DNA of 22,214 nucleotides from a virus, in the IMG/VR virus record IMGVR_UViG_3300035698_004215, positions 1 to 22,214 of that record, one strand, 5' to 3'. The notes under the pieces are model-generated. The model was not told where the DNA came from and searched no databases. It worked only from the letters and a program-made list of their open reading frames with translations. The translations under genes were made by a program, and so were the position numbers. This document shows positions 986-14,587 of this stretch, one piece after another (the first letter of the stretch is position 1; each line of letters opens with the position of its first letter).

Positions 986-1648
986 CTACCCCTGTCCTGT
1001 TATCCCATTTAGCAATTCAAGGCCATAGTTAAGTATCTTTAGTCTCATTTCTTTTCTGGCGGCAGTAGCAGAAGCAGAATAAGCAGAATAAGCAGCAGAA
1101 TAAGTAGCAGAAGCAGCATAAGCATAAGCAGCAGGATAAGCATAAGCAGCAGTAGCAGAAGCAGCATAAGCAGAATAAGCATAAGAATAAGCAGAATAAG
1201 CATAAGCAGCAGGATAAGAAGTATAAGCGGCAGTAGCAGAAGCAGAATAAGCAGAATAAGCAGCAGAATAAGCATCATAATAAGCATCATAATAACCCTC
1301 ATGATAAGCAGCAGAAACAACATAAGCTTTTTTAGCAATCTCCTTGTTTTCATCACTAGGGTTATTGATACATGCCTTGGCTGCTTCAATAGCCTCTCTC
1401 GGCCTCTTGTCACAAGGATATTTATCTTCAAATATATCAATAACCTGTTCAGCGGCAAAGACCGCATAAGGCACGTATTGCTTGTAGCTCATAACCCTCA
1501 CAATAAGCCATCCTGCATCTTCCAGCTCGTCTTGCTTGACAAGCTCCTTTAAGACCTCAATACTATCGGTTTTATCCTGTTTAAGAAACCATTTAATGCC
1601 ACTTTGGCAAGCGTTCTTTTCTTTCAACCATTCTTTAGTGATTTTCAT
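986..1648 (-). CDS. Imm-5-like 'putative immunity protein' with Ala/Tyr/Ser repeat
   Basis: The 220-residue product has the pattern of the Imm-5-like family, annotated in phages and bacteria as 'putative immunity protein'. An N-terminal block runs from KEWLKEKNACQSGIKWFL through EVLKELVKQ. A conserved WLIVRVMSYKQYVPYAVFAAE segment (about residues 48-68, given here only in part) follows, then KRPREAIEAAKAC, and a C-terminal ARKEMRLKILNYGLELL helix closes the domain. Between about residues 115 and 200 lies an unusually long run of Ala, Tyr and Ser, with some Pro and Thr, built from GCT, TAT and TCT codons. Family members often carry Ala-rich repeats here, and this one is very expanded. The start is supported by AGGAG and a four-base ATGA overlap with the upstream gene. 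Family membership comes from recalled motifs, and the biochemical role is unknown. Confidence 0.75.
   Translation of the reverse strand: MKITKEWLKEKNACQSGIKWFLKQDKTDSIEVLKELVKQDELEDAGWLIVRVMSYKQYVPYAVFAAEQVIDIFEDKYPCDKRPREAIEAAKACINNPSDENKEIAKKAYVVSAAYHEGYYDAYYDAYSAAYSAYSASATAAYTSYPAAYAYSAYSYAYSAYAASATAAYAYPAAYAYAASATYSAAYSAYSASATAARKEMRLKILNYGLELLNGITGQG
1059..1272. repeat. 46-bp perfect direct repeat bracketing a triplet-repeat tract
   Basis: Positions 1059-1104 and 1227-1272 are identical over 46 bases and lie 168 bases (56 codons) apart, inside the Ala/Tyr/Ser region of the Imm-5-like gene. Between and beyond them, the DNA is almost entirely AGC, ATA and AGA triplets (GCT/TAT/TCT on the coding strand). 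Because 168 is a multiple of three, recombination or slippage between the copies would shorten or lengthen the protein without breaking the frame. Confidence 0.9.
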
Positions 1649-5028: not shown

Positions 5029-6573
5029 TTGGCAGCATACACAAAGGCTCAGAAAGATTTCTTAATAGATAAATTCACGAAAGGCAAGAAGGACCTTCCT
5101 GCTTTCCGAGAGCATATCCTTGAGAATCCTGAGGAGGAGAGGCTGACATGTGCGCCTTTTCATTTTGAATGGTCAGATATTCTTCTTAAGGAGACTGGTC
5201 ATTTCTGTATTGAGGGTTATAGGGAATCAGCAAAAACCCAGTATATTCTAAGAGCGTTCCCTTTATATAATTTGGTGTATCCAGAGAAGAGCCGTCGTTA
5301 CGTCCTATTTGTATGTCGTAACCAGGAGACTGCTGAGAAGCGTCTGAAGGACATTAAGAATGAGTATAAGGCGAATGCGCTATTGAATGCAAGATTAGGT
5401 AAGATTAGCGAAGATTCAGCTGCCGTATTCCAGATAAGTGTATTTGATAATAACGGGTCTTCTATCGTTGTTCGTTATGAAGCACATGGGAAAGCTGGCA
5501 GTATCCGTGGTGCGTCATGGGGGGCGTTACGTCCACAGCTTATCGTAATGGATGATTTACAGAACAAAGATGATATGGACAGTGAGAGGGCGTTAGAGCG
5601 TGACTGGGACTGGTTTCTAGATGATGTATTGCCTTTGACGTCTAAAGGGCGTATCTTCTATATATCTAATAATCTTGGAGAGAAATGTATAGCAGAACGT
5701 ATCTTTGCTGCTAAGGGGTATTTTGGTCCTACTAAGCAGTTCACGTGTAGGAAAGTTAGCAGAACATCTGCACTTGACTTACAAGGCACACCAAGCTGGC
5801 CATCAAAGGATAATCAGCCTGGCATTCTAGCTGAACGAGATGCCTTTGCTCTTAACGGACGAGCTTCAATCTGGATGCGAAACAATATGTGCGAATGTGT
5901 GGCGGCTGAAGATAAAGTGTTTCAACCTGAATGGTTCCATTATTATCCGGTCTGTGAGACTGAGAATTTGGCTCGCTCCTGTAATATATTCTGTAGATGC
6001 GATTTAGGACTGACCTCAAAGGACACAGCGGACTATTGTGCGTTTGTCGTAGTTGGTGTTAATGAACTGAACTATTGGTATGTTCTTGATGTTCATTATG
6101 GGCGCTATAGTCTTAGCGAACGTGTTGATAAAGTCTTTGAGATTAATAGACTCTGGGAACCCATGAACTTCGGAATAGAGAACGCAGCTGGCTCTGACCT
6201 CATTATTGGGGAAGTTAATAAGCAGATGCCAGTGCGGAATAATTTCGTAAGGGACCTTTTTGAATGCACACATGGTGGCAAGAAGAAAGAGTTACGGATT
6301 CAGGCCATGCAACCGAGATTCTCTAGTGGTTCCGTTTGGTTCCCTGATGAAGCTCCATGGCTTGCTGAACTGCAACATGAGCTATCTATGTTCACCATGT
6401 TAGGTCTTACTACCGTGCATGATGACTTAATGGATGCGTTAGCTTATTGTGAGCAAAAGACCTATGCTCCTGTTAATAATCCAGGCAATAAGAAGAGGAC
6501 GCAACAGAACCGCAATAGACTGGGCGCTCCGAAAACTAAGAATAGTGGTGGTGCTAGATGCAGAATCGGATAG
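5029..6573 (+). CDS. terL: Terminase large subunit (ATPase-nuclease)
   Basis: The motor that cuts concatemeric DNA and pumps it through the portal. The 514-residue protein shows the ATPase domain in order: a Walker A variant GYRESAKT (63-70), Walker B LIVMDD (171-176), and a coupling segment FYISNN (210-215). The nuclease domain follows with the first acidic residue in CRCDLG (D325), a second near FGIEN (E384), and HDDLMDAL (about 464-471) supplying the last ones. The length is normal for the family. The start is the TTG at 5029, six bases after GGGGAG. The C-terminal tail is basic and Asn-rich. The next gene overlaps by 16 bases. The family is clear; its packaging type cannot be read from sequence alone. 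Confidence 0.95.
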   Translation: MAAYTKAQKDFLIDKFTKGKKDLPAFREHILENPEEERLTCAPFHFEWSDILLKETGHFCIEGYRESAKTQYILRAFPLYNLVYPEKSRRYVLFVCRNQETAEKRLKDIKNEYKANALLNARLGKISEDSAAVFQISVFDNNGSSIVVRYEAHGKAGSIRGASWGALRPQLIVMDDLQNKDDMDSERALERDWDWFLDDVLPLTSKGRIFYISNNLGEKCIAERIFAAKGYFGPTKQFTCRKVSRTSALDLQGTPSWPSKDNQPGILAERDAFALNGRASIWMRNNMCECVAAEDKVFQPEWFHYYPVCETENLARSCNIFCRCDLGLTSKDTADYCAFVVVGVNELNYWYVLDVHYGRYSLSERVDKVFEINRLWEPMNFGIENAAGSDLIIGEVNKQMPVRNNFVRDLFECTHGGKKKELRIQAMQPRFSSGSVWFPDEAPWLAELQHELSMFTMLGLTTVHDDLMDALAYCEQKTYAPVNNPGNKKRTQQNRNRLGAPKTKNSGGARCRIG

Positions 6574-7052
6574 GAAGCGATAGTCATATTGGGCATGTTG
6601 AGGTGGTGGAGGTTGACGAGACTCCAGAGTTCCTTGCCTTCCATAATAGACTTATACAACTTGACCCCAATAACATTATTAAAAGCTCTGAGAGTGAAAC
6701 ATTAATGCTTGATAGCACTAGAAGATTCTTTACATTGTTCAATGGGGAGCGAGTTGGCACAATATCTTTGTTTCAGTCTGACATTAAACGAGACGTTCAT
6801 TGCATAACAGCCTATAAGGATCACGATAATCCGTTCCCTATAAGAGTCTCTATTGAGATGTATAGGTTATTTGTAGGGCTTGTAGGGGCTGAAGTCATTA
6901 ACCTATACGGTTGGGTTGCCTTAAACAACAGGATTCTTAATCGCACTATGAGAGCTCTTGGCTTTGAACAGACCACTAGTTTCATTGAGCGTGGACATCA
7001 ATTCAATATGTATTATTCTAATCTATCTATAGGAGGAGAACACAATGGCTGA
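6558..7052 (+). CDS. GNAT-fold acetyltransferase-like protein, 164 aa
   Basis: The product has the outline of a GNAT N-acetyltransferase fold. A central strand (GERVGTISLF, about 74-83) is followed by a helix over IEMYRLFVGLVGAEVINLYG, then the end pattern NRILNRTMRALGFEQTTSF, which matches the GNAT 'N..a.r.y.klGF' finish. GNAT-like proteins are common between terminase and portal genes of podoviruses, and the T7 internal virion protein gp13 has been related to this fold. The acetyl-CoA loop is degenerate, so catalysis is uncertain and a structural role is possible. It overlaps terL by 16 bases and the next gene by eight. Confidence 0.6.
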   Translation: MQNRIGSDSHIGHVEVVEVDETPEFLAFHNRLIQLDPNNIIKSSESETLMLDSTRRFFTLFNGERVGTISLFQSDIKRDVHCITAYKDHDNPFPIRVSIEMYRLFVGLVGAEVINLYGWVALNNRILNRTMRALGFEQTTSFIERGHQFNMYYSNLSIGGEHNG

Positions 7053-7308
7053 AATATTCACAGCAGCATTATCAGCGCAGTCTGCAAGTAAAGAGAGACA
7101 TGCTCGTAAAGCAGCGGCCCATGATGCTGACGTTGCAGCTCAACAGTTAGAGGCTGATGCCCTACAAGCTGAACAGGACGCTGAACTAGCTGCCACTGAG
7201 AAGGCACGAAAGAGACAGGCGTCACAGACTCAAACTATAAACACAAGTCCACTCGGTGACACAGAGACAGCGGCCACTAAGAAACCAACGTTATTGGGGA
7301 CAACCTAA
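7045..7308 (+). CDS. Coiled-coil protein ahead of portal, 87 aa
   Basis: It starts at the ATG at 7045 behind a strong AGGAGGAG. Residues 10-58 are rich in Ala, Glu, Gln and Lys with heptad spacing (for example ADALQAEQDAELAATEKARK), indicating a long helix or coiled coil. The end carries SPLGDT and KPTLLG, short motifs I associate with similar small genes placed just before podovirus portals. Its TAA overlaps the portal ATG by one base. The function is unknown. A capsid-internal or connector-associated role fits the location. Confidence 0.75.
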   Translation: MAEIFTAALSAQSASKERHARKAAAHDADVAAQQLEADALQAEQDAELAATEKARKRQASQTQTINTSPLGDTETAATKKPTLLGTT

Positions 7309-8957
7309 TGGCTAAAAAAGAACTGAAAGCTAAAAAGAAAGCACCTAGTCAATCTGAGATGACGCAAGCTCAATATGAGATTAAGAAATATGAGCAATTG
7401 AAGAATGATAAGAGCACTGTGCAGAATAGACTCAATCAGATAGCGCATTACATTTTCCCACGTAAATATAACATTGACGTTAATGGGGATAACACAACTA
7501 CTGACCTACCAACAGACGTATATGACGGGACCGCAATCTACTCGCTAAAGGTCTTAGCAGCTGGTCTGGCTTCTTTCCTTACGAATCAGTCCTCTAAATG
7601 GTTTGTTTTCACCGCAGGTGCTGACCAAGAAAGTCCTATAGCTAAAATGTGGTTACAGAAACTAGAGAAAGCATGTTATAGGCTTTTCAATGATTCTAAT
7701 TTCTATAGCGCAATGGCTGAAATGTATAAGACGTTGGGTGCGTTTGGGAACGGTATTCTCTATAGTGAAGAGGATAAAGAGAAAGGTAAATTCTATCAGA
7801 CCTTTGATGTTATGAATTGCGCCTTTGAGACAGATGGCAAGAATCGTATTATAGGAGTTTATCGGGAGTATTACTATACAAGCCTCCAGTGCATCGAAGA
7901 GTTCGGGGAATCTAACGTTCCAGAAGTAGTTATCGCTGACATTAACGGTGGAACAGGCAGTAAAAAATTCCAGATATTACATGTAGTGAGACCAAGGAGA
8001 CGTTATGAAGAAGGCAAGATGGACGTCAAGAATAAGAAGGTCGCATCAACATACTATCTAATGCAAACTAAAGATATATTAAAGGAATCAGGGTTCGATA
8101 AGTTCCCATATAATGTAGCGAGATTTGAAACTAATCCAAATGATCCATACGGTTATGGGCCAGCGGAAGATGCATTACCTGACATTAAGAGCCTTAACCA
8201 GGCGGTCTACGACTGGCATGAAAGTGTTCAGATTGCTAACCGTCCTGTAATTATATTCCCATCTGACTCTTACGGAACACCAACAGACGTTGCACCAGGA
8301 GACATCATCTTTAAGCAAGGTGGAGACCCTAAAGAGAAGATTGAAACTATTGGGGGCACTAACCCGAATATCACTCTTGAGATGCTGAAGGACATTAGAG
8401 ATAGGATTCAAAAAGCCTTCTTCGTTGAAATGTTCATGGCTGTATCTAATGAGACAAAACGAATGACGGTCCCAGAAGTGCAGAAAAGAATATCGGAACA
8501 GATGAACATTGTTGGTTCTTCTCTAAACTCTCTTACAGGAGAACTATTAGAGCCAGCTGTAATGGACGTTGTTGATACTGTCATTAAGCTAGGTTGGGTT
8601 GAGGAAGCTCCAGAAGAACTACAAGAACTTAACGTTCGGTTCGTTGGTCCACTAGCAAGAGCGCAACGTAACGTTGATGCAAATGCCATTCAAGGCTGGA
8701 TTCAATCTGTTCAGCAAATGGCTCAGACTCCAGAATTGGCATCAGCTCTCGACGTTATCAATGCGACAAACAGCGCAACTACCCTAGCTGACATTATGGG
8801 CGTTCCTGTAGAGGACGTTAACGGACCAGAAGAAGTTAAAGTTATTAGAGATGGTAGGGCTAAGGCTCAATCAGCACAAATAGAGCAAGCTAACGCAGCA
8901 CAGGCAGCTCAGACTGGCAAAACTAATAGTGAAACTCAAAAGAACTTAGAGGCCTAA
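7308..8957 (+). CDS. Portal (head-tail connector) protein, T7 gp8 type
   Basis: Forms the twelve-subunit ring through which DNA enters and leaves the head. The 549-residue product matches the T7-type head-tail connector family: an N-terminal helix RLNQIAHYIFPRKYNI (about 43-58), the wing segment VLAAGLASFLTNQSSKWFVF (about 82-101), and the conserved NDPYGYGPAEDALPDIKSLN block (about 278-297). A long clip/stem region follows with RDRIQKAFFVEMF and RMTVPEVQKRISEQM. The C-terminal 50 residues are Ala/Gln-rich and probably form the barrel helix. The start overlaps the previous stop (TAATG), with GGGGA upstream. The length is typical. Confidence 0.95.
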   Translation: MAKKELKAKKKAPSQSEMTQAQYEIKKYEQLKNDKSTVQNRLNQIAHYIFPRKYNIDVNGDNTTTDLPTDVYDGTAIYSLKVLAAGLASFLTNQSSKWFVFTAGADQESPIAKMWLQKLEKACYRLFNDSNFYSAMAEMYKTLGAFGNGILYSEEDKEKGKFYQTFDVMNCAFETDGKNRIIGVYREYYYTSLQCIEEFGESNVPEVVIADINGGTGSKKFQILHVVRPRRRYEEGKMDVKNKKVASTYYLMQTKDILKESGFDKFPYNVARFETNPNDPYGYGPAEDALPDIKSLNQAVYDWHESVQIANRPVIIFPSDSYGTPTDVAPGDIIFKQGGDPKEKIETIGGTNPNITLEMLKDIRDRIQKAFFVEMFMAVSNETKRMTVPEVQKRISEQMNIVGSSLNSLTGELLEPAVMDVVDTVIKLGWVEEAPEELQELNVRFVGPLARAQRNVDANAIQGWIQSVQQMAQTPELASALDVINATNSATTLADIMGVPVEDVNGPEEVKVIRDGRAKAQSAQIEQANAAQAAQTGKTNSETQKNLEA

Positions 8958-8960
8958 CAC

Positions 8961-9338
8961 ATGAAATATAGTAGCGCTGAAATAGTTAATCCAGATTTCT
9001 ACATTGATTTCATAGAGATGCTGACTAACGAGAATGGTAAAAAGGCTCTGGATAAATTGACATGGTATTTAGGTCTTGACGGTTTCGATAAGGACAGTCA
9101 CATAAACGCTTATAGAACGGGGGCTAGAGATTTACTCAGCCTTCTTAAAAAGTGGGGTGATCCTCAATATAAGAAACAGTTAGAAAACAGAAGGGAAGTT
9201 TATGACAGAGTTAAACACGAATCCGATAACAAATGGAGCGGAAACAGTAGCGCCAGTATCGGGGAGTTCAGTGGAGCAGGTAAGCCAAGAAGCAAATCAG
9301 GAAACAGTAACGGAAAGTCCGACATCATGGTTCGATAA
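8961..9338 (+). CDS. Bbp19-like protein, 125 aa, with long overlap into the scaffold gene
   Basis: The first 85 residues resemble the Bbp19-like phage domain found directly after podovirus portal genes: a helix with ENGKKALDKLTWYLGL, then an INAYRTGARDLLSLLKKW motif. It starts at the ATG at 8961, three bases after the portal stop, with AGAGG ahead. From about residue 82 the coding sequence overlaps the start of the scaffold gene for 137 bases in another frame. This final part (Ser/Gly/Asn/Lys-rich, for example KPRSKSGNSNGKS) looks disordered and is probably a late extension. The family assignment rests on recalled motif pattern. Confidence 0.65.
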   Translation: MKYSSAEIVNPDFYIDFIEMLTNENGKKALDKLTWYLGLDGFDKDSHINAYRTGARDLLSLLKKWGDPQYKKQLENRREVYDRVKHESDNKWSGNSSASIGEFSGAGKPRSKSGNSNGKSDIMVR

Positions 9339-10071
9339 TGTGCCAGAAGAGTATAGGGAAAATGCTTCTCTCGTATCTCTAAAGGACAAAGACTTCGGTG
9401 AGTTCGTAAAGGATTATGCTAATAAGGATAGTCTAGTTGGCAAGAAGGGCGTTATATTACCAGACCCTAATAGTCCAGAGGACATTGCTCGTTACAACAA
9501 AGAGATTGGCGTTCCAGAATCAGCCGACCTTTATGAGAGTCAAGAATTTGACATTCCAGAAGAAGTCAGTCAGTTTATTGACACAGAGAGAGCTGAAGGG
9601 TTTAAGGAGCTAGCACATAAATACGGCTTGACTCCCGACCAATACAAGGGACTAGTTTCCGAAGTAATGGCGCAGGACATTGGAACTATCAAAGACAGAC
9701 AGGCAGCGGAAGTTGAAACTGCAAATCAGACTAAGACGGACCTCCGAAACGAGTGGGGCGAGAAAACAGATGAACGAATAGCAAGAGCGCAAGGGTTAAT
9801 AGACAATTTCGCAGATGAAGCATCACATGAGTTCTTTAATTCCAACAATAAGGATACAGGACTTATAAGATTTCTAGACGGTATTGCCCAACAAATGTCA
9901 CCAGATTCAATTGCTTCATCAGGAACGGCAGCGGTTAAGATGAACGGTCAACAGGCACAAGCTAGAATGACGGAAATTCTAGGACATGACGCATACTTCA
10001 AGGCTGGCATTAAAAGTCCTGAACAGAAATCGTTACAGTCAGAATACGCTGAATTATCGAAATTGATTTAA
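9202..10071 (+). CDS. Capsid scaffolding protein, 289 aa
   Basis: Guides capsid assembly and then leaves the shell. The product is acidic and largely helical. A disordered N-terminus (MTELNTNPITNGAETVAPVS) is followed by WFDNVPEEYRENASLVSLKD, then the conserved LVGKKGVILPDPNSPEDIAR segment with IGVPESADLY, a pattern shared by podovirus scaffold or capsid-assembly proteins. The rest is coiled-coil-like with a short C-terminal helix (EYAELSKLI). AAGGGA precedes the ATG at 9202, inside the preceding gene. Its location immediately before the capsid gene supports the call. It is the counterpart of T7 gp9. Confidence 0.85.
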   Translation: MTELNTNPITNGAETVAPVSGSSVEQVSQEANQETVTESPTSWFDNVPEEYRENASLVSLKDKDFGEFVKDYANKDSLVGKKGVILPDPNSPEDIARYNKEIGVPESADLYESQEFDIPEEVSQFIDTERAEGFKELAHKYGLTPDQYKGLVSEVMAQDIGTIKDRQAAEVETANQTKTDLRNEWGEKTDERIARAQGLIDNFADEASHEFFNSNNKDTGLIRFLDGIAQQMSPDSIASSGTAAVKMNGQQAQARMTEILGHDAYFKAGIKSPEQKSLQSEYAELSKLI

Positions 10072-10189
10072 TAGTTGGGTAGCCTGAAATGGTCCGACAG
10101 AATACCGCACTACAAAAGTCCTTTATGGGTAGCTTTTGAGAAGAAAGTAACTAACTAACTTAAAAGCACTACACACAAGGAGCACTATA

Positions 10190-11047
10190 ATGGCAACAGA
10201 AACATGGAATGCAAATGCGTTCAGTCCTATCTTAATGACTGAATTGCAACGAAAAGGTGGATTGATGGAAACGGTAATGGTTGACAGTGGCTTGAATGAC
10301 GCTGAATATGAATACCGTGACACTATGGGTAAACTTGATTTAAAACGAAAACAGGGTCGTTTACAGGACACTGCATGGGAAGAAATTACTAAATATAGAC
10401 GCCGTATCATGCGTGAAGAATTTACTAAACATATCATTCTTGATAAGTTTGATAAGCTGAACTGGAAAGTTGACCCAACCGCTGCAATTCCACAGGAACT
10501 CGCAATGGGCGCTAAACGGACTATCGACGATCTTATCATCACTAACATGACCGCTGACGTAAAGACTGGTCAAGCTGGTGGAACAACTACTCCTTTTGAT
10601 GCTAATAACATAGTAGCTCATGACTCAACTAACATCACTAAAGCTAAAATCATTGAAGCTCGTAAGATATTGCGTGCGAACTACGTTGATTTCTCTGAAG
10701 AGCTGTATATGGTTATTGGTTCTGAACAGGAAGCTGCAATGCTTGCTATTGATGAGTTTATTAGTGCTGATTACATTGCCAACAAACCTATGGTAAATGG
10801 ACAGATTGGTACAGTGTTGGGTCTTAATGTTGTAATCAACGAAGGTCTTGATGTATCATCTTCAGTTCGTAAATGTCTTGTTTACCCTAAGAGTGCTTTT
10901 CAGCTTCTCATTGCTGATGAGTTCAAGACTCGTATGGATGAAGTTCAAACAAAAGAATACGCTTCTGGTTTCTCAGCTAGTTTGGCTATCGGTGGTTTGC
11001 GTATGTATGAAGGTAAAGTAGCGCAGATTTTATGCGACGAATCTTGA
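10190..11047 (+). CDS. Major capsid protein, HK97-type fold, 285 aa
   Basis: The main shell protein. It begins MATETWNANAFSPILMTELQ and continues with a basic arm and an E-loop-like region (RDTMGKLDLKRKQGRLQDTA). The A-domain part includes EELYMVIGSEQEAAMLA and NGQIGTVLGLNVVINEG, typical of phage capsid proteins of the podovirus group that includes BPP-1-like phages. The final segment SLAIGGLRMYEGKVAQIL is the closing strand pair. The start follows AAGGAG in a cassette shared with the next gene. A 118-base gap precedes it and holds no clear promoter, only a weak CAAAAG/CTTTTG dyad at 10113-10138 and a repeated GGGTAGC. Confidence 0.92.
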   Translation: MATETWNANAFSPILMTELQRKGGLMETVMVDSGLNDAEYEYRDTMGKLDLKRKQGRLQDTAWEEITKYRRRIMREEFTKHIILDKFDKLNWKVDPTAAIPQELAMGAKRTIDDLIITNMTADVKTGQAGGTTTPFDANNIVAHDSTNITKAKIIEARKILRANYVDFSEELYMVIGSEQEAAMLAIDEFISADYIANKPMVNGQIGTVLGLNVVINEGLDVSSSVRKCLVYPKSAFQLLIADEFKTRMDEVQTKEYASGFSASLAIGGLRMYEGKVAQILCDES

Positions 11048-11071
11048 GGATAATTAACATCTAATCGTAGC

Positions 11072-11101
11072 TAGGGGTGGGGGCATTGTGTCCTCGCCCT
11101 A
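11072..11101 (+). promoter_or_regulatory. RNA hairpin after the capsid gene
   Basis: TAGGG (bulged G) TGGGGGCA pairs with TGTCCTCG CCCTA around a three-base loop, giving about 13 pairs, some of them G-U. No U-tract follows, so it is more likely a processing or stability element than a terminator. It lies between capsid and decoration genes. Confidence 0.55.
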
Positions 11102-11125
11102 ACACTACACACTAAGGAGCACATT

Positions 11126-11557
11126 ATGGCAATAGTAGACGCAGTAGGCACACAAGCAGCATTGATCGCAGCTAAAGGGCAGGCATCTCGTCCAAATCAG
11201 GGCGGTTCACCAATGACTTTTTCTGACACAGTAACTTTCGCAGCAGCTGACGCTGGTTCAGTTGGCACGGTATGTGGTACTCTTCCAGCTGGTCTGATGA
11301 TTACAAACATTCAGTTAGCATTTGCAGACGTTAGTGCAGATGGAGCAACAGTTGACGTTGGTGATAGCGCTGATGCTAACAGATACATTGACGGTGTTGA
11401 TGTAGCTACAGGCGCTGGTTCTTTTAATTCTGGCTTAATTCTAGCTGGACAGAACTATGTAGTTGGAACAGCTTCTGGCGATAACCAGATTCTTATCACG
11501 ACAGCTGACGGTGCTTGCGCTGGAGCGATTAAGATTGTTATTACAGGTTCAATGTAA
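11126..11557 (+). CDS. Probable head decoration protein, 143 aa
   Basis: A Gly/Ala/Asp/Thr-rich, strand-rich product that begins MAIVDAVGTQAALIAAKGQA. It contains a repeated pattern of short strands with VGTVCGTLPAGLMITNIQLA and GDNQILITTADGACAG, ending IKIVITGSM. It lies just after the capsid gene, has the same AAGGAG start cassette, and is bordered by two hairpins, all of which suggest a high-copy virion protein such as a cement or decoration protein. No family is recognised, so the role is inferred from location, composition and expression signals. Confidence 0.7.
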   Translation: MAIVDAVGTQAALIAAKGQASRPNQGGSPMTFSDTVTFAAADAGSVGTVCGTLPAGLMITNIQLAFADVSADGATVDVGDSADANRYIDGVDVATGAGSFNSGLILAGQNYVVGTASGDNQILITTADGACAGAIKIVITGSM

Positions 11558-11575
11558 GAGAGTAGTTTAATAGAT

Positions 11576-11604
11576 TGGGAGTGGGGCTAAATACCTCACT
11601 TCCA
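11576..11604 (+). promoter_or_regulatory. RNA hairpin after the decoration gene
   Basis: TGGGAGTGGGG pairs with CCTCACTTCCA around a seven-base loop, giving 11 pairs in RNA, two of them G-U. As with the hairpin after the capsid gene, no U-tract follows. The two together may trim or protect a messenger segment for the abundant head proteins. Confidence 0.55.
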
Positions 11605-11640
11605 TCTTGTTATCATAAATATATATAAAGGAGCTTTAAT

Positions 11641-12201
11641 ATGGCAAGTGACGTTCAGATATGTAATTTAGCATTAGCGAAAATAGGACAGACTCCAATA
11701 TTAGCTTTGTCTCAGAACGCTCCAAGGGCAGAGAAATGTAATGCAGTGTATAGCTTATTACGTGATGCTGAACTATCTGAACATAACTGGAAGTTCGCTG
11801 TGGCATATAGTGAGCTAACCGTAGTTGACGAGGATCAAGATTCAGAATACACTTATTCGTTTCAGTTACCTTCCGATTACTTAAAGGAAGTTAAGATAGA
11901 TAGTAATAGCCTTGACTACAGAATAGTTGGTGACAAGCTTTATACGGACGCCGATGAAATCAGCATTGAGTATATTAGACAGGTTGCTGACTCTGGTGAG
12001 TTCTCGGCCCCGTTTGTAGATTTACTGGCAGCTCGCATTGCAAAAGAGTTAGCATGGGGCATCACGAACAACAGAACCCTTAGTATTGATTTAGCTGAAG
12101 ATTATGTGATTGTCCGAAGACGCACTACAGGGATCGATTCTCAGCAAGGCAAGCCTAGACGTATGTTTCGTAATTTAATGAACGAGAGCAGGCGCCTATA
12201 A
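11641..12201 (+). CDS. Tail tubular protein A (head-tail gatekeeper), T7 gp11 type
   Basis: Binds under the portal and starts the short tail. The 186-residue product begins MASDVQICNLALAKIGQTPI, followed by LRDAELSEHNWKFAVAYSEL. The NLAL.kiG and L....WnFA patterns are hallmarks of the T7 gp11/tail tube A family. FQLPSDYLKEVKI and a helical LLAARIAKELAWGITNN follow, again as in the family. The length is close to T7 gp11 (about 196). The start at 11641 has AAGGAG ahead. Its TAA overlaps the ATG of the next gene by one base. Confidence 0.9.
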   Translation: MASDVQICNLALAKIGQTPILALSQNAPRAEKCNAVYSLLRDAELSEHNWKFAVAYSELTVVDEDQDSEYTYSFQLPSDYLKEVKIDSNSLDYRIVGDKLYTDADEISIEYIRQVADSGEFSAPFVDLLAARIAKELAWGITNNRTLSIDLAEDYVIVRRRTTGIDSQQGKPRRMFRNLMNESRRL

Positions 12202-12629
12202 TGAGCAGGCTATTAGTAGTTGGGTCTGGTGAAAAGGGCATCATTAATATAATGGCCGGCTATCATGTGATGGTGATTAATAAAGAGATTCGTGATTGGC
12301 CTGAAGCACAACATTTCGTGTCAGTTCATCACTTGTTCCACACTAAAGGGAATGCAACTGGTCATGCTCATAGACACGATGAAATAGCTGACTGTTTCTG
12401 GAGATTCAAGAACAATGGTGGGACATCGGGCCTGTTCGCTATGCACGTTGCCATAAAGCTCGGTTACGAGAAGATAGCACTATATGGTATTCCTCTTAGT
12501 GGAGAATATGGTGGTAAGCCAGTCACCAACACATGGCGTGAATACATAGAAAAGAACGATTGCAAGAATGTTAGAAGCTATTCTGGTGAAACAATGAAAC
12601 TATTAGGCGATGCGAAAGGTTGGTTCTAA
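12201..12629 (+). CDS. Rossmann-like protein among tail genes, 142 aa
   Basis: Not a usual tail component. The product begins MSRLLVVGSGEKGIINIMAG, a strand then a Gly-rich turn as in nucleotide-binding folds. It later has HHLFHTKG, then GGTSGLFAMHVAIKLGYEKI, the strand ALYGIPLSGEY, and an NVRSYSGETMKLLGDAKGWF end. This 'G.S.l.a...A..lGy..i.l.GiP' pattern recalls the MptE/DUF115-like and sialyltransferase-like Rossmann proteins seen in some phage genomes. It is coupled to tail tubular A by TAATG and lies three bases before the next gene. The enzymatic activity and substrate are unknown, and the fold is inferred. Confidence 0.6.
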   Translation: MSRLLVVGSGEKGIINIMAGYHVMVINKEIRDWPEAQHFVSVHHLFHTKGNATGHAHRHDEIADCFWRFKNNGGTSGLFAMHVAIKLGYEKIALYGIPLSGEYGGKPVTNTWREYIEKNDCKNVRSYSGETMKLLGDAKGWF

Positions 12630-12631
12630 GT

Positions 12632-14587
12632 ATGAAATCTAGTCAAGCATATACGAATGTCACTGCTGGTCTTATTGGACCGAAACAGTCAGGTCGTTTT
12701 GATATAGCGCAATATGGCGTTGGAGCTCAGACTCTAGAAAACTTTGTAGTTGAATATTATGGAGGAGCTGCACGAACTCCAGGAACTCGCTATGTGGCAG
12801 AAACTAAAGATAGTACTAAAGATAGTGTCCTTATACCATTTGTGTTCAGCACAGTTCAGGCTTACACCATTGAAGCTGGCGATCAATACATGCGTTTCTT
12901 TAAAGATGGCGGCCAGATTCTGTCTGGGGCAGTTCCATACGAGCTCCCAACTAACTTTCTAGAAAGTGAACTTAGAGACATCGGTTATACGCAAGATGCT
13001 GACAAGCTATACATTGTAGCTGAAGACCATGAACCATCAGAACTTACTCGTTCAGCTCACGATTCTTGGACATTAACTGATATTGATTTTGTAGGTGGAC
13101 CACTCATTACACGAAATACAACTATCACGAAAACACTACAGGCTGATTCAGCTACCGGCACAGCAACAATAACAGCAGATGGTCACACTCCTTTCTTAGT
13201 TGGTCATATCGGTTCTATATGGCGCCTAAATGACGGTTACTTTAAAATTACAGCATTCACTGACACCACTCATGTTACAGGCGTTGTGCAGGGAGAAGAT
13301 AATCTAGGTAGTACGTCCGCAGAATGGGATTGGGCGGAAGCAGCTTTCTCTGACGTGCGAGGCTATCCATCAGCAACAACCTTTTATGAAGAGCGTCTAG
13401 TGTTCGGTAAACATCCAGCATTTCCACAATCAGTATGGATGAGCAAGCCTGGCATATTCAACGACTTCACTATTGGGGCAGCTGACACTGACGGTATCTT
13501 CTTTGAGATTAAAGCGAAACAAGTTAACGCAATCAAATGGTTCGATAGTGGCACTTTCTTGACAGTTGGCACATCGTCTGGCTTATTCCGAATTACACTT
13601 GATGGAGTATTAGCGTCAGTCAGTTTACTTGAGACTACAGGAGTTGGTGGCAATGAATCAGTTCGTATTGGTGGCCTCATGCATTTCGTAGAGAGAGATA
13701 CCAGAACAGTCGCTGAACTAGTGTTCGATTACAATTCAGACAGTTACCAGGCAGTTGATATAACGAACCTAGCGAAAGTTGTCACAGAAACAGGCATTGT
13801 AGATTTCTCGTATCAGAAAAGTCCAAATAGCATATTATGGGGTATCCGAACAGATGGCGACCTCTGCTCTCTCACACGCATAGTTCCAGATAAAATTAAG
13901 TCATGGCACACACAAATTACAAGTGGTCTTTATAAAGCAATAGCCACCATTCCAAATGGGGAAGAAGACCAAACTTGGTTTATAGTAGAACGAGAAATAA
14001 ACGGGAACACTGTCCGTTACATTGAATACCTCGAATCTTTTGATTTCGGTGAGGATCAGGAGGACGCTTTCTTTGTTCATTGCGGGCTAACGTATGACAG
14101 CACCGCAGCGACAAGCATTTCAGGTCTAGACCATCTTGAAGGCGCCGAGGTATCCATTCTAGCTGACGGAGCTCCCGTTCCTAATCAAACAGTAGTTTCA
14201 GGTGCAATTACTCTGGCGAAAGCTGCAAGTGTAGTTCAGGTTGGATTACCGTATACTAGCACGATTAAAACTATGCGTCTAGAGCAAGGGTCAGTAACAG
14301 GAGCTTCACATGGTAAATTGGCCCGTATATACGGAGTTACACTGAATGTGTATAAGTCACTAGGTGGTTCATACAAAACTGACGAAGACAGCGGTTTCTA
14401 CGAGATGATTTGGAGACGAGGAGATGATGTCGGTGGTGTTGCAACGGAACTTCAAACTGATAGCATAAAGGACTTAGATTTAACTGGCGCCGTATCAAAG
14501 GACGTTTACATAGAGATTAAACAGGACCAACCATTGCCAATGACTATAATTGGGATTTATCCTAGAATGGACACTAACGATGGATAA
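12632..14587 (+). CDS. Tail tubular protein B / tail nozzle, 651 aa
   Basis: Forms the lower tube of the short tail. I prefer the ATG at 12632 over the TTG at 12620, which directly abuts the AAAGG site. The protein begins MKSSQAYTNVTAGLIGPKQS with the family's GRFD...Y..GA...NF.V...GG...RPGT-type N-terminus (here VEYYGGAARTPGTRYVAE). It continues with FYEERLVFGKHPAFPQSVW and WFDSGTFLTVGTSSGLFRIT, then a late ISGLDHLEGAEVSILADGAP immunoglobulin-like piece. These features match podovirus nozzle or stabilisation proteins in the role of T7 gp12, though the sequence is closer to the BPP-1-type version. The length is somewhat shorter than T7 gp12. Confidence 0.88.
   Translation: MKSSQAYTNVTAGLIGPKQSGRFDIAQYGVGAQTLENFVVEYYGGAARTPGTRYVAETKDSTKDSVLIPFVFSTVQAYTIEAGDQYMRFFKDGGQILSGAVPYELPTNFLESELRDIGYTQDADKLYIVAEDHEPSELTRSAHDSWTLTDIDFVGGPLITRNTTITKTLQADSATGTATITADGHTPFLVGHIGSIWRLNDGYFKITAFTDTTHVTGVVQGEDNLGSTSAEWDWAEAAFSDVRGYPSATTFYEERLVFGKHPAFPQSVWMSKPGIFNDFTIGAADTDGIFFEIKAKQVNAIKWFDSGTFLTVGTSSGLFRITLDGVLASVSLLETTGVGGNESVRIGGLMHFVERDTRTVAELVFDYNSDSYQAVDITNLAKVVTETGIVDFSYQKSPNSILWGIRTDGDLCSLTRIVPDKIKSWHTQITSGLYKAIATIPNGEEDQTWFIVEREINGNTVRYIEYLESFDFGEDQEDAFFVHCGLTYDSTAATSISGLDHLEGAEVSILADGAPVPNQTVVSGAITLAKAASVVQVGLPYTSTIKTMRLEQGSVTGASHGKLARIYGVTLNVYKSLGGSYKTDEDSGFYEMIWRRGDDVGGVATELQTDSIKDLDLTGAVSKDVYIEIKQDQPLPMTIIGIYPRMDTNDG

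Follow-up and report, generated by a model that had tools for sequence, protein, structure and literature searches.

The window analysed here, the whole 22,214-base stretch of the IMG/VR virus record IMGVR_UViG_3300035698_004215, carries terminase, head-tail adaptor, major head and tail genes. At positions 986-1648 on the minus strand, within a leftward cluster of small genes of unknown function, lies an open reading frame (ORF) of 220 codons, which overlaps the neighbouring ORF 1645-1842 by 4 bases and has an AGGAG at 1654-1658, 5 bases upstream of its ATG. An imperfect direct repeat of 25 bp (84%; GATAACAGGACAGGRGT), at 987-1011 and 1652-1676, takes in the closing part of an ORF together with the ribosome-binding region of the ORF that follows, ahead of both ORFs 986-1648 and 791-979, and looks like a duplicated gene junction. 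A second duplicated stretch, a 33-bp direct repeat (82%) with the core TCATCTCAACACCTCCA, is found at 1923-1955 and 2190-2222, 267 bp apart, one copy overlapping the start of ORF 1982-2236.

The 220-residue protein begins with an N-terminal domain of the type MKITKEWL...AC..G..WF... (residues 1-53; 1490-1648, minus strand), followed by a helical core with the pattern YAxFAAEQVIxIFExKYPxDxRPRxAIEAAK (residues 55-107; 1328-1486, minus strand), a low-complexity Ala/Tyr/Ser tract (residues 108-197; 1058-1327, minus strand) and a conserved C-terminal helix, RKEMRLKILNYGLELLNGIT (residues 198-217; 998-1057, minus strand). The initial annotation had described the tract as almost pure GCT/TAT/TCT, with identical 46-base copies 168 bases apart at 1059-1272, and both descriptions hold. 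Ala is encoded by GCT in 34/37 cases, Tyr by TAT in 24/24 and Ser by TCT in 15/15, and 86/90 codons are NNT, while in the large ORFs of the phage the same codons account for 54%, 70% and 32%, respectively. The 46-bp repeat GCGGCAGTAGCAGAAGCAGAATAAGCAGAATAAGCAGCAGAATAAG, at 1059-1104 (residues 183-197) and 1227-1272 (residues 127-141), is exact and maximal, is the longest exact direct repeat of the whole window and encodes YSAAYSAYSASATAA; its copies are offset by 56 codons and even share a rare GCC codon (residues 140 and 196). Further exact repeats of 23, 22 and 20 bp occur, and TRF reports overlapping periods of 9, 12, 21 and 39 bp. Under codon Markov chains fitted to the same tract, the median longest repeat was 23 for order 1, with P(>=46)=0.0003, and 29 for order 2, with P=0.015; the order-3 chain, which largely memorises the tract, gave P=0.26. 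Given the order-1 and order-2 values, the 46-bp pair most likely arose by genuine duplication within the tract and exceeds what low complexity alone would produce. The shifted minus frame at 1045-1467 is open through the tract for 140 codons and encodes a hydrophobic peptide rich in Leu, Ile and Met; the open frame follows mechanically from the triplet repeat, but a frameshift would produce that peptide.

In profile searches, residues 8-148 matched phrog_38757 significantly (E 1.2e-29, 104 bits), an entry of unrecorded function. Neither it nor the entries phrog_21347 and phrog_18326 records a function or a variable tract. Residues 55-107 correspond to the start of the Imm5_like profile (PF21805), which scored 12 bits, below its curated cut-off of 25, and the Imm5 profile matched weakly, also below cut-off. 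The Imm5_like cut-off was, however, passed by four relatives (L025, 32.1; L010, 32.6; L018, 44.2; L094, 34.1), with which the core motif of the window protein aligns, and its structural model is mostly alpha-helical, with the tract at low confidence. Imm5_like and Imm5 (PF14423; named in PMC3482391) are putative immunity proteins of polymorphic toxin systems. The likeness consists of the helical core motif YP-D-RPR-AI-AA followed by Ala-rich helices; unlike Imm5_like proteins, the window protein carries an additional N-domain, its low-complexity tract is expanded, and beside its family no toxin gene was found.

Alignment-based scans returned 16 viral and 3 genome loci and then 80 viral loci, partly on the same contigs. 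About 100 viral relatives follow the same plan. In nearly all loci the N-domain is succeeded by the YP-D-RPR-AI-AA core, then by an Ala-rich tract, and at the C-terminus by a helix of the KEMxxKIxxYGIxLL type. A hypothetical protein of the Methanosarcina virus MetMV (AZF89938.1) is 44.7% identical over the first 102 residues of the window protein and follows the same plan, including Ala-rich tract and C-terminal helix, but its tract is built of A/D/V/Y and most often uses GCG for Ala, and its host is archaeal. Salmonella phage 9NA gp10 and its homologues in Sergei, Solent, PDP46 and 536P12 have the same type of N-domain (the 9NA and PDP46 proteins match our N-domain model weakly), an AAY/AAD tract, a short C-terminal helix and a natural series of tract lengths; unlike the window protein, they have a divergent core, and the best PHROG of the PDP46 protein is phrog_21347. 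Nothing on the window-protein family turned up in the literature searched for phage proteins of the Imm5-like kind, for ydhT and for intragenic repeats of phages.

The proposal that the tract expands and contracts without loss of frame, so that its length differs between phage isolates, is supported by these relatives. For the window phage itself, sequence scans found no near-identical relative: the best terminase relative, on a 6.9-kb contig, is 69% identical, and the contigs of terminase relatives are short and end before the variable-tract gene. A blastn search of window positions 5029-12900 against a phage collection gave no match, and single-sequence scans of viral_contigs and genome_contigs held no close relative, although alignment queries did find relatives. 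In 9NA, Sergei and Solent, 900/900 bp upstream, 282/282 bp of the N-domain and core and 39/39 bp at the 3' end are identical, and yet the tracts measure 95, 42 and 76 codons, respectively; tract length is thus not constant across related phages. The loci L012 and L014, identical at 314/315 bases of the N-domain and core, differ by a single in-frame block of 45 bp, and L021, which matches the MetMV region without a difference over 4,309 bp, differs from L026 by 60 bp, again in frame. In the more diverged pair of 536P12 and PDP46 the tracts are 88 and 64 residues, a difference of 24 codons. All length differences in the compared pairs are multiples of three.

The codons of the tracts bear on how these blocks arise. 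Among 68 tracts, whose borders were set by a simple Ala-richness score, the dominant Ala codon made up on average 86% (0.86) of Ala codons, against 43% (0.43) for a null drawn from the same loci, and in 54/68 tracts the share was above all 200 null draws. Which codon dominates varies from phage to phage: GCT in 36 genes, GCC in 25, GCG in 14 and GCA in 6. This homogenisation of Ala codons, with a favoured codon that differs between phages, means that new tract DNA is copied from the tract itself, through slippage or recombination between in-frame repeats of which the 46-bp pair is an example, followed by point mutation. The evolution of tract length is thus driven by in-frame recombination or slippage. 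Selection appears to act on the protein, since the DNA words differ while the pattern of Ala plus Tyr, Asp or Ser is kept. The whole gene, too, occurs in 2-4 nearby copies with different tracts in L066, L105, L110, L020 and L076; the arrays at L105 787-2620, L110 1973-4154 and L066 1311-2604 have similar cores and different tracts.

An AlphaFold2 model of the window protein, built with 32 sequences, is confident for the N-domain (pLDDT ~91-96), the core and the C-terminal helix (block 201-210, pLDDT 93), while the tract is predicted to be mostly helical at low confidence. As the pLDDT of the tract is mostly 27-49 and it contains two prolines and much Tyr, the window protein's own tract may not be a regular helix. 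In 59 tracts of the family, delimited by the same Ala-richness score, the non-Ala residues recur with a period of 3.4-3.8 residues, which is that of an alpha-helix, and this period is weak in the window protein. The hardly repetitive relative L094 is predicted to be all-alpha (pTM 0.80), with the tract region partly at low confidence, and it matches Imm5_like across the tract region. Fold searches of the PDB with the window-protein and L094 models gave no significant match among solved structures, and a search of viral folds gave none either, its best match being named Imm-5-like (prob 0.84 but E 0.56). We infer an elongated helical excursion for the tract, with both of its ends meeting at the core.

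The genetic setting is of the accessory type, both for the window gene, in its minus-strand cluster of small genes, and for related genes. Repressor and N-like genes are neighbours in GF-2, an antirepressor gene in phiKX1, and the terminase gene terL adjoins the related gene in 9NA and PDP46. A search beside the family for a recurrent neighbour gene, toxin included, found none, and a PADLOC search for defence families returned nothing. In the phage of L020, which has two copies of the gene, an ORF of pentapeptide repeats (ADLRS) lies at ~5114-5750, ~2.1 kb downstream of the gene start, and a related ORF is found ~1 kb downstream of the gene in L100.

Taken together, the interpretation that we consider probable is that the 46-bp repeat belongs to an alpha-helical arm of variable length, carried by a phage accessory protein that is a relative of the Imm5_like family. 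The sequences show that the Ala-rich tract connects the conserved N-domain and core with the conserved C-terminal helix and that, in near-identical relatives, it gains and loses blocks of whole codons between identical flanks. The tract, predicted to be a helix or a helical hairpin, would leave and re-enter a closed helical core, and its length could therefore change without breaking the predicted fold. The protein would be a non-virion accessory that binds a host or rival-phage target, in the manner of immunity or anti-defence proteins, and a change in repeat number would adjust the reach or the surface of the binding arm. Considering the accessory-gene settings and the relation to Imm5_like, we favour such a putative role in binding inside the cell, of an immunity or anti-defence kind, with an arm tuned by its length. 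This functional half is put forward as inference only, because no toxin or target gene is conserved as a neighbour and no solved structure matches. A further reservation about the reading is that short-read assembly may have collapsed part of some tracts.

The main competing explanation, which we regard as considerably less than an even prospect, is neutral drift in length: the tract would be a spacer of irrelevant length, in which slippage goes unchecked as long as the frame and a helix-compatible composition are kept. It would account for the range of tract lengths in complete relatives, from a few to ~150 residues with tracts delimited by the Ala-richness score, and for the order of patterns within the tract, which differs even between phages with identical flanks; that no conserved partner gene was found also fits. 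However, composition (Ala plus mainly Tyr, Asp, Ser, Asn and Arg) and helical period are kept across genes that use different codons, nearly all relatives keep the tract, and single phages retain tandem paralogues with different tracts.

It is very improbable that the repeat is an assembly artefact, the tract having been duplicated or collapsed from short reads. The window comes from IMG/VR and probably derives from such reads, but a normal read is longer than either 46-bp copy, the copies lie in differing contexts, and the family pattern recurs in ~100 records as well as in 9NA, the one relative whose sequencing method was considered, which was Sanger-sequenced with reads of 660 bases (PMC4153490); because such reads can span its 285-bp tract, the tract length in 9NA is not a short-read artefact, and we rejected this explanation.

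Slightly less credible still is the comparison with contingency loci made in the initial annotation, by which the repeats would serve as an on/off switch for the gene or adjust its expression in a population (phase variation). The tract is hypervariable and differs in length between close relatives, as it does at such loci. The comparison is nevertheless not supported: every step between close pairs is a multiple of three, complete relatives read through the tract without frameshift to the C-terminal helix, and in-frame steps that leave frame and gene intact cannot switch the gene on or off. Moreover, the tract lies deep in the coding region and is neither a promoter nor a short simple repeat, and the out-of-frame product would be the Leu/Ile/Met-rich peptide described above. 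Phase variation was rejected accordingly. The idea that the repeat acts as DNA, as iterons or a packaging or replication site with the protein incidental, is the most implausible of all and was also rejected, as the dense direct-repeat array and the position of the related gene next to terL in 9NA and PDP46 are outweighed by conservation of the amino-acid pattern and the flanking protein domains but not of the DNA word, with GCT, GCC, GCG or GCA tracts in different relatives.

The N-domain extends beyond the proteins with Ala-rich tracts. We built a 53-aa HMM of it, which defines the modular MKITKE family; the window protein (E 2.7e-24) is in the model by construction, and independent members with other repeats score from 1e-16 to 1e-5. 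In these the N-domain is combined with 9-mers of the GSSGDxARI type (GF-2, L115), GxGIxA 6-mers (L022, L023, L123), 6-mers of the GVNGSY type (L117) and PALEEYQRIKQ 11-mers (L024, L122); MORN_2 repeats occur in L126, where the N-domain match is borderline (E 0.04). The repeat types named here should not be read as a census, the relatives having been found with queries from the Ala-rich branch, except in a scan by N-terminal DNA pattern alone. That scan gave 22 matches, repetitive or Ala/Ser-rich after the N-domain, one being cut by a contig end; the short L121 and a 120-aa copy on the L013 contig show this character weakly. Pfam had no match for the N-domain in the proteins tested, and NCBIfam none in the window protein.

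Proteins of the YdhT type, namely the phiKX1 protein annotated ydhT, an ORF of Escherichia phage 503046 and the collagen-like protein of Edwardsiella phage GF-2, have a similar N-domain start and then tandem repeats, but with ~9-residue units of the GSSGDxARI type in place of Ala-rich helices. The 503046 ORF (tblastn to GF-2, E 5e-12) adjoins a cytochrome-b-like gene, and we take it to be YdhT of E. coli. At the DNA level, the E. coli genomes searched contained nothing related to the N-domain of PDP46 or GF-2. A bolder and, in our estimate, unlikely extension of these findings is that the N-domain is a conserved docking module set on interchangeable, fast-evolving repeat scaffolds, and that repeat recombination is a general way of diversifying binding surfaces in host-phage and phage-phage conflict. 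The scaffolds would be Ala-rich helices, 9-mer, 6-mer and 11-mer repeats and perhaps MORN_2, and the module would be used by phages and, through YdhT-like proteins, by enterobacteria. If true, such diversification would be distinct from diversity-generating retroelements.

In-frame repeats of variable length are familiar from bacterial surface proteins, and in the present case they turn up repeatedly in small phage proteins that form a widespread, unannotated family. The isolated Salmonella phages 9NA, Sergei and Solent, with identical flanks and different tracts, are a ready-made allelic series for testing the role of the tract, and an N-domain common to unrelated repeat types could guide the annotation of YdhT and of many hypothetical phage proteins. 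As to the record named 'Escherichia phage 503046', the region with the YdhT-like gene beside the cytochrome-b-like ORF (L138 1501-2313) looks like bacterial chromosome and not phage.
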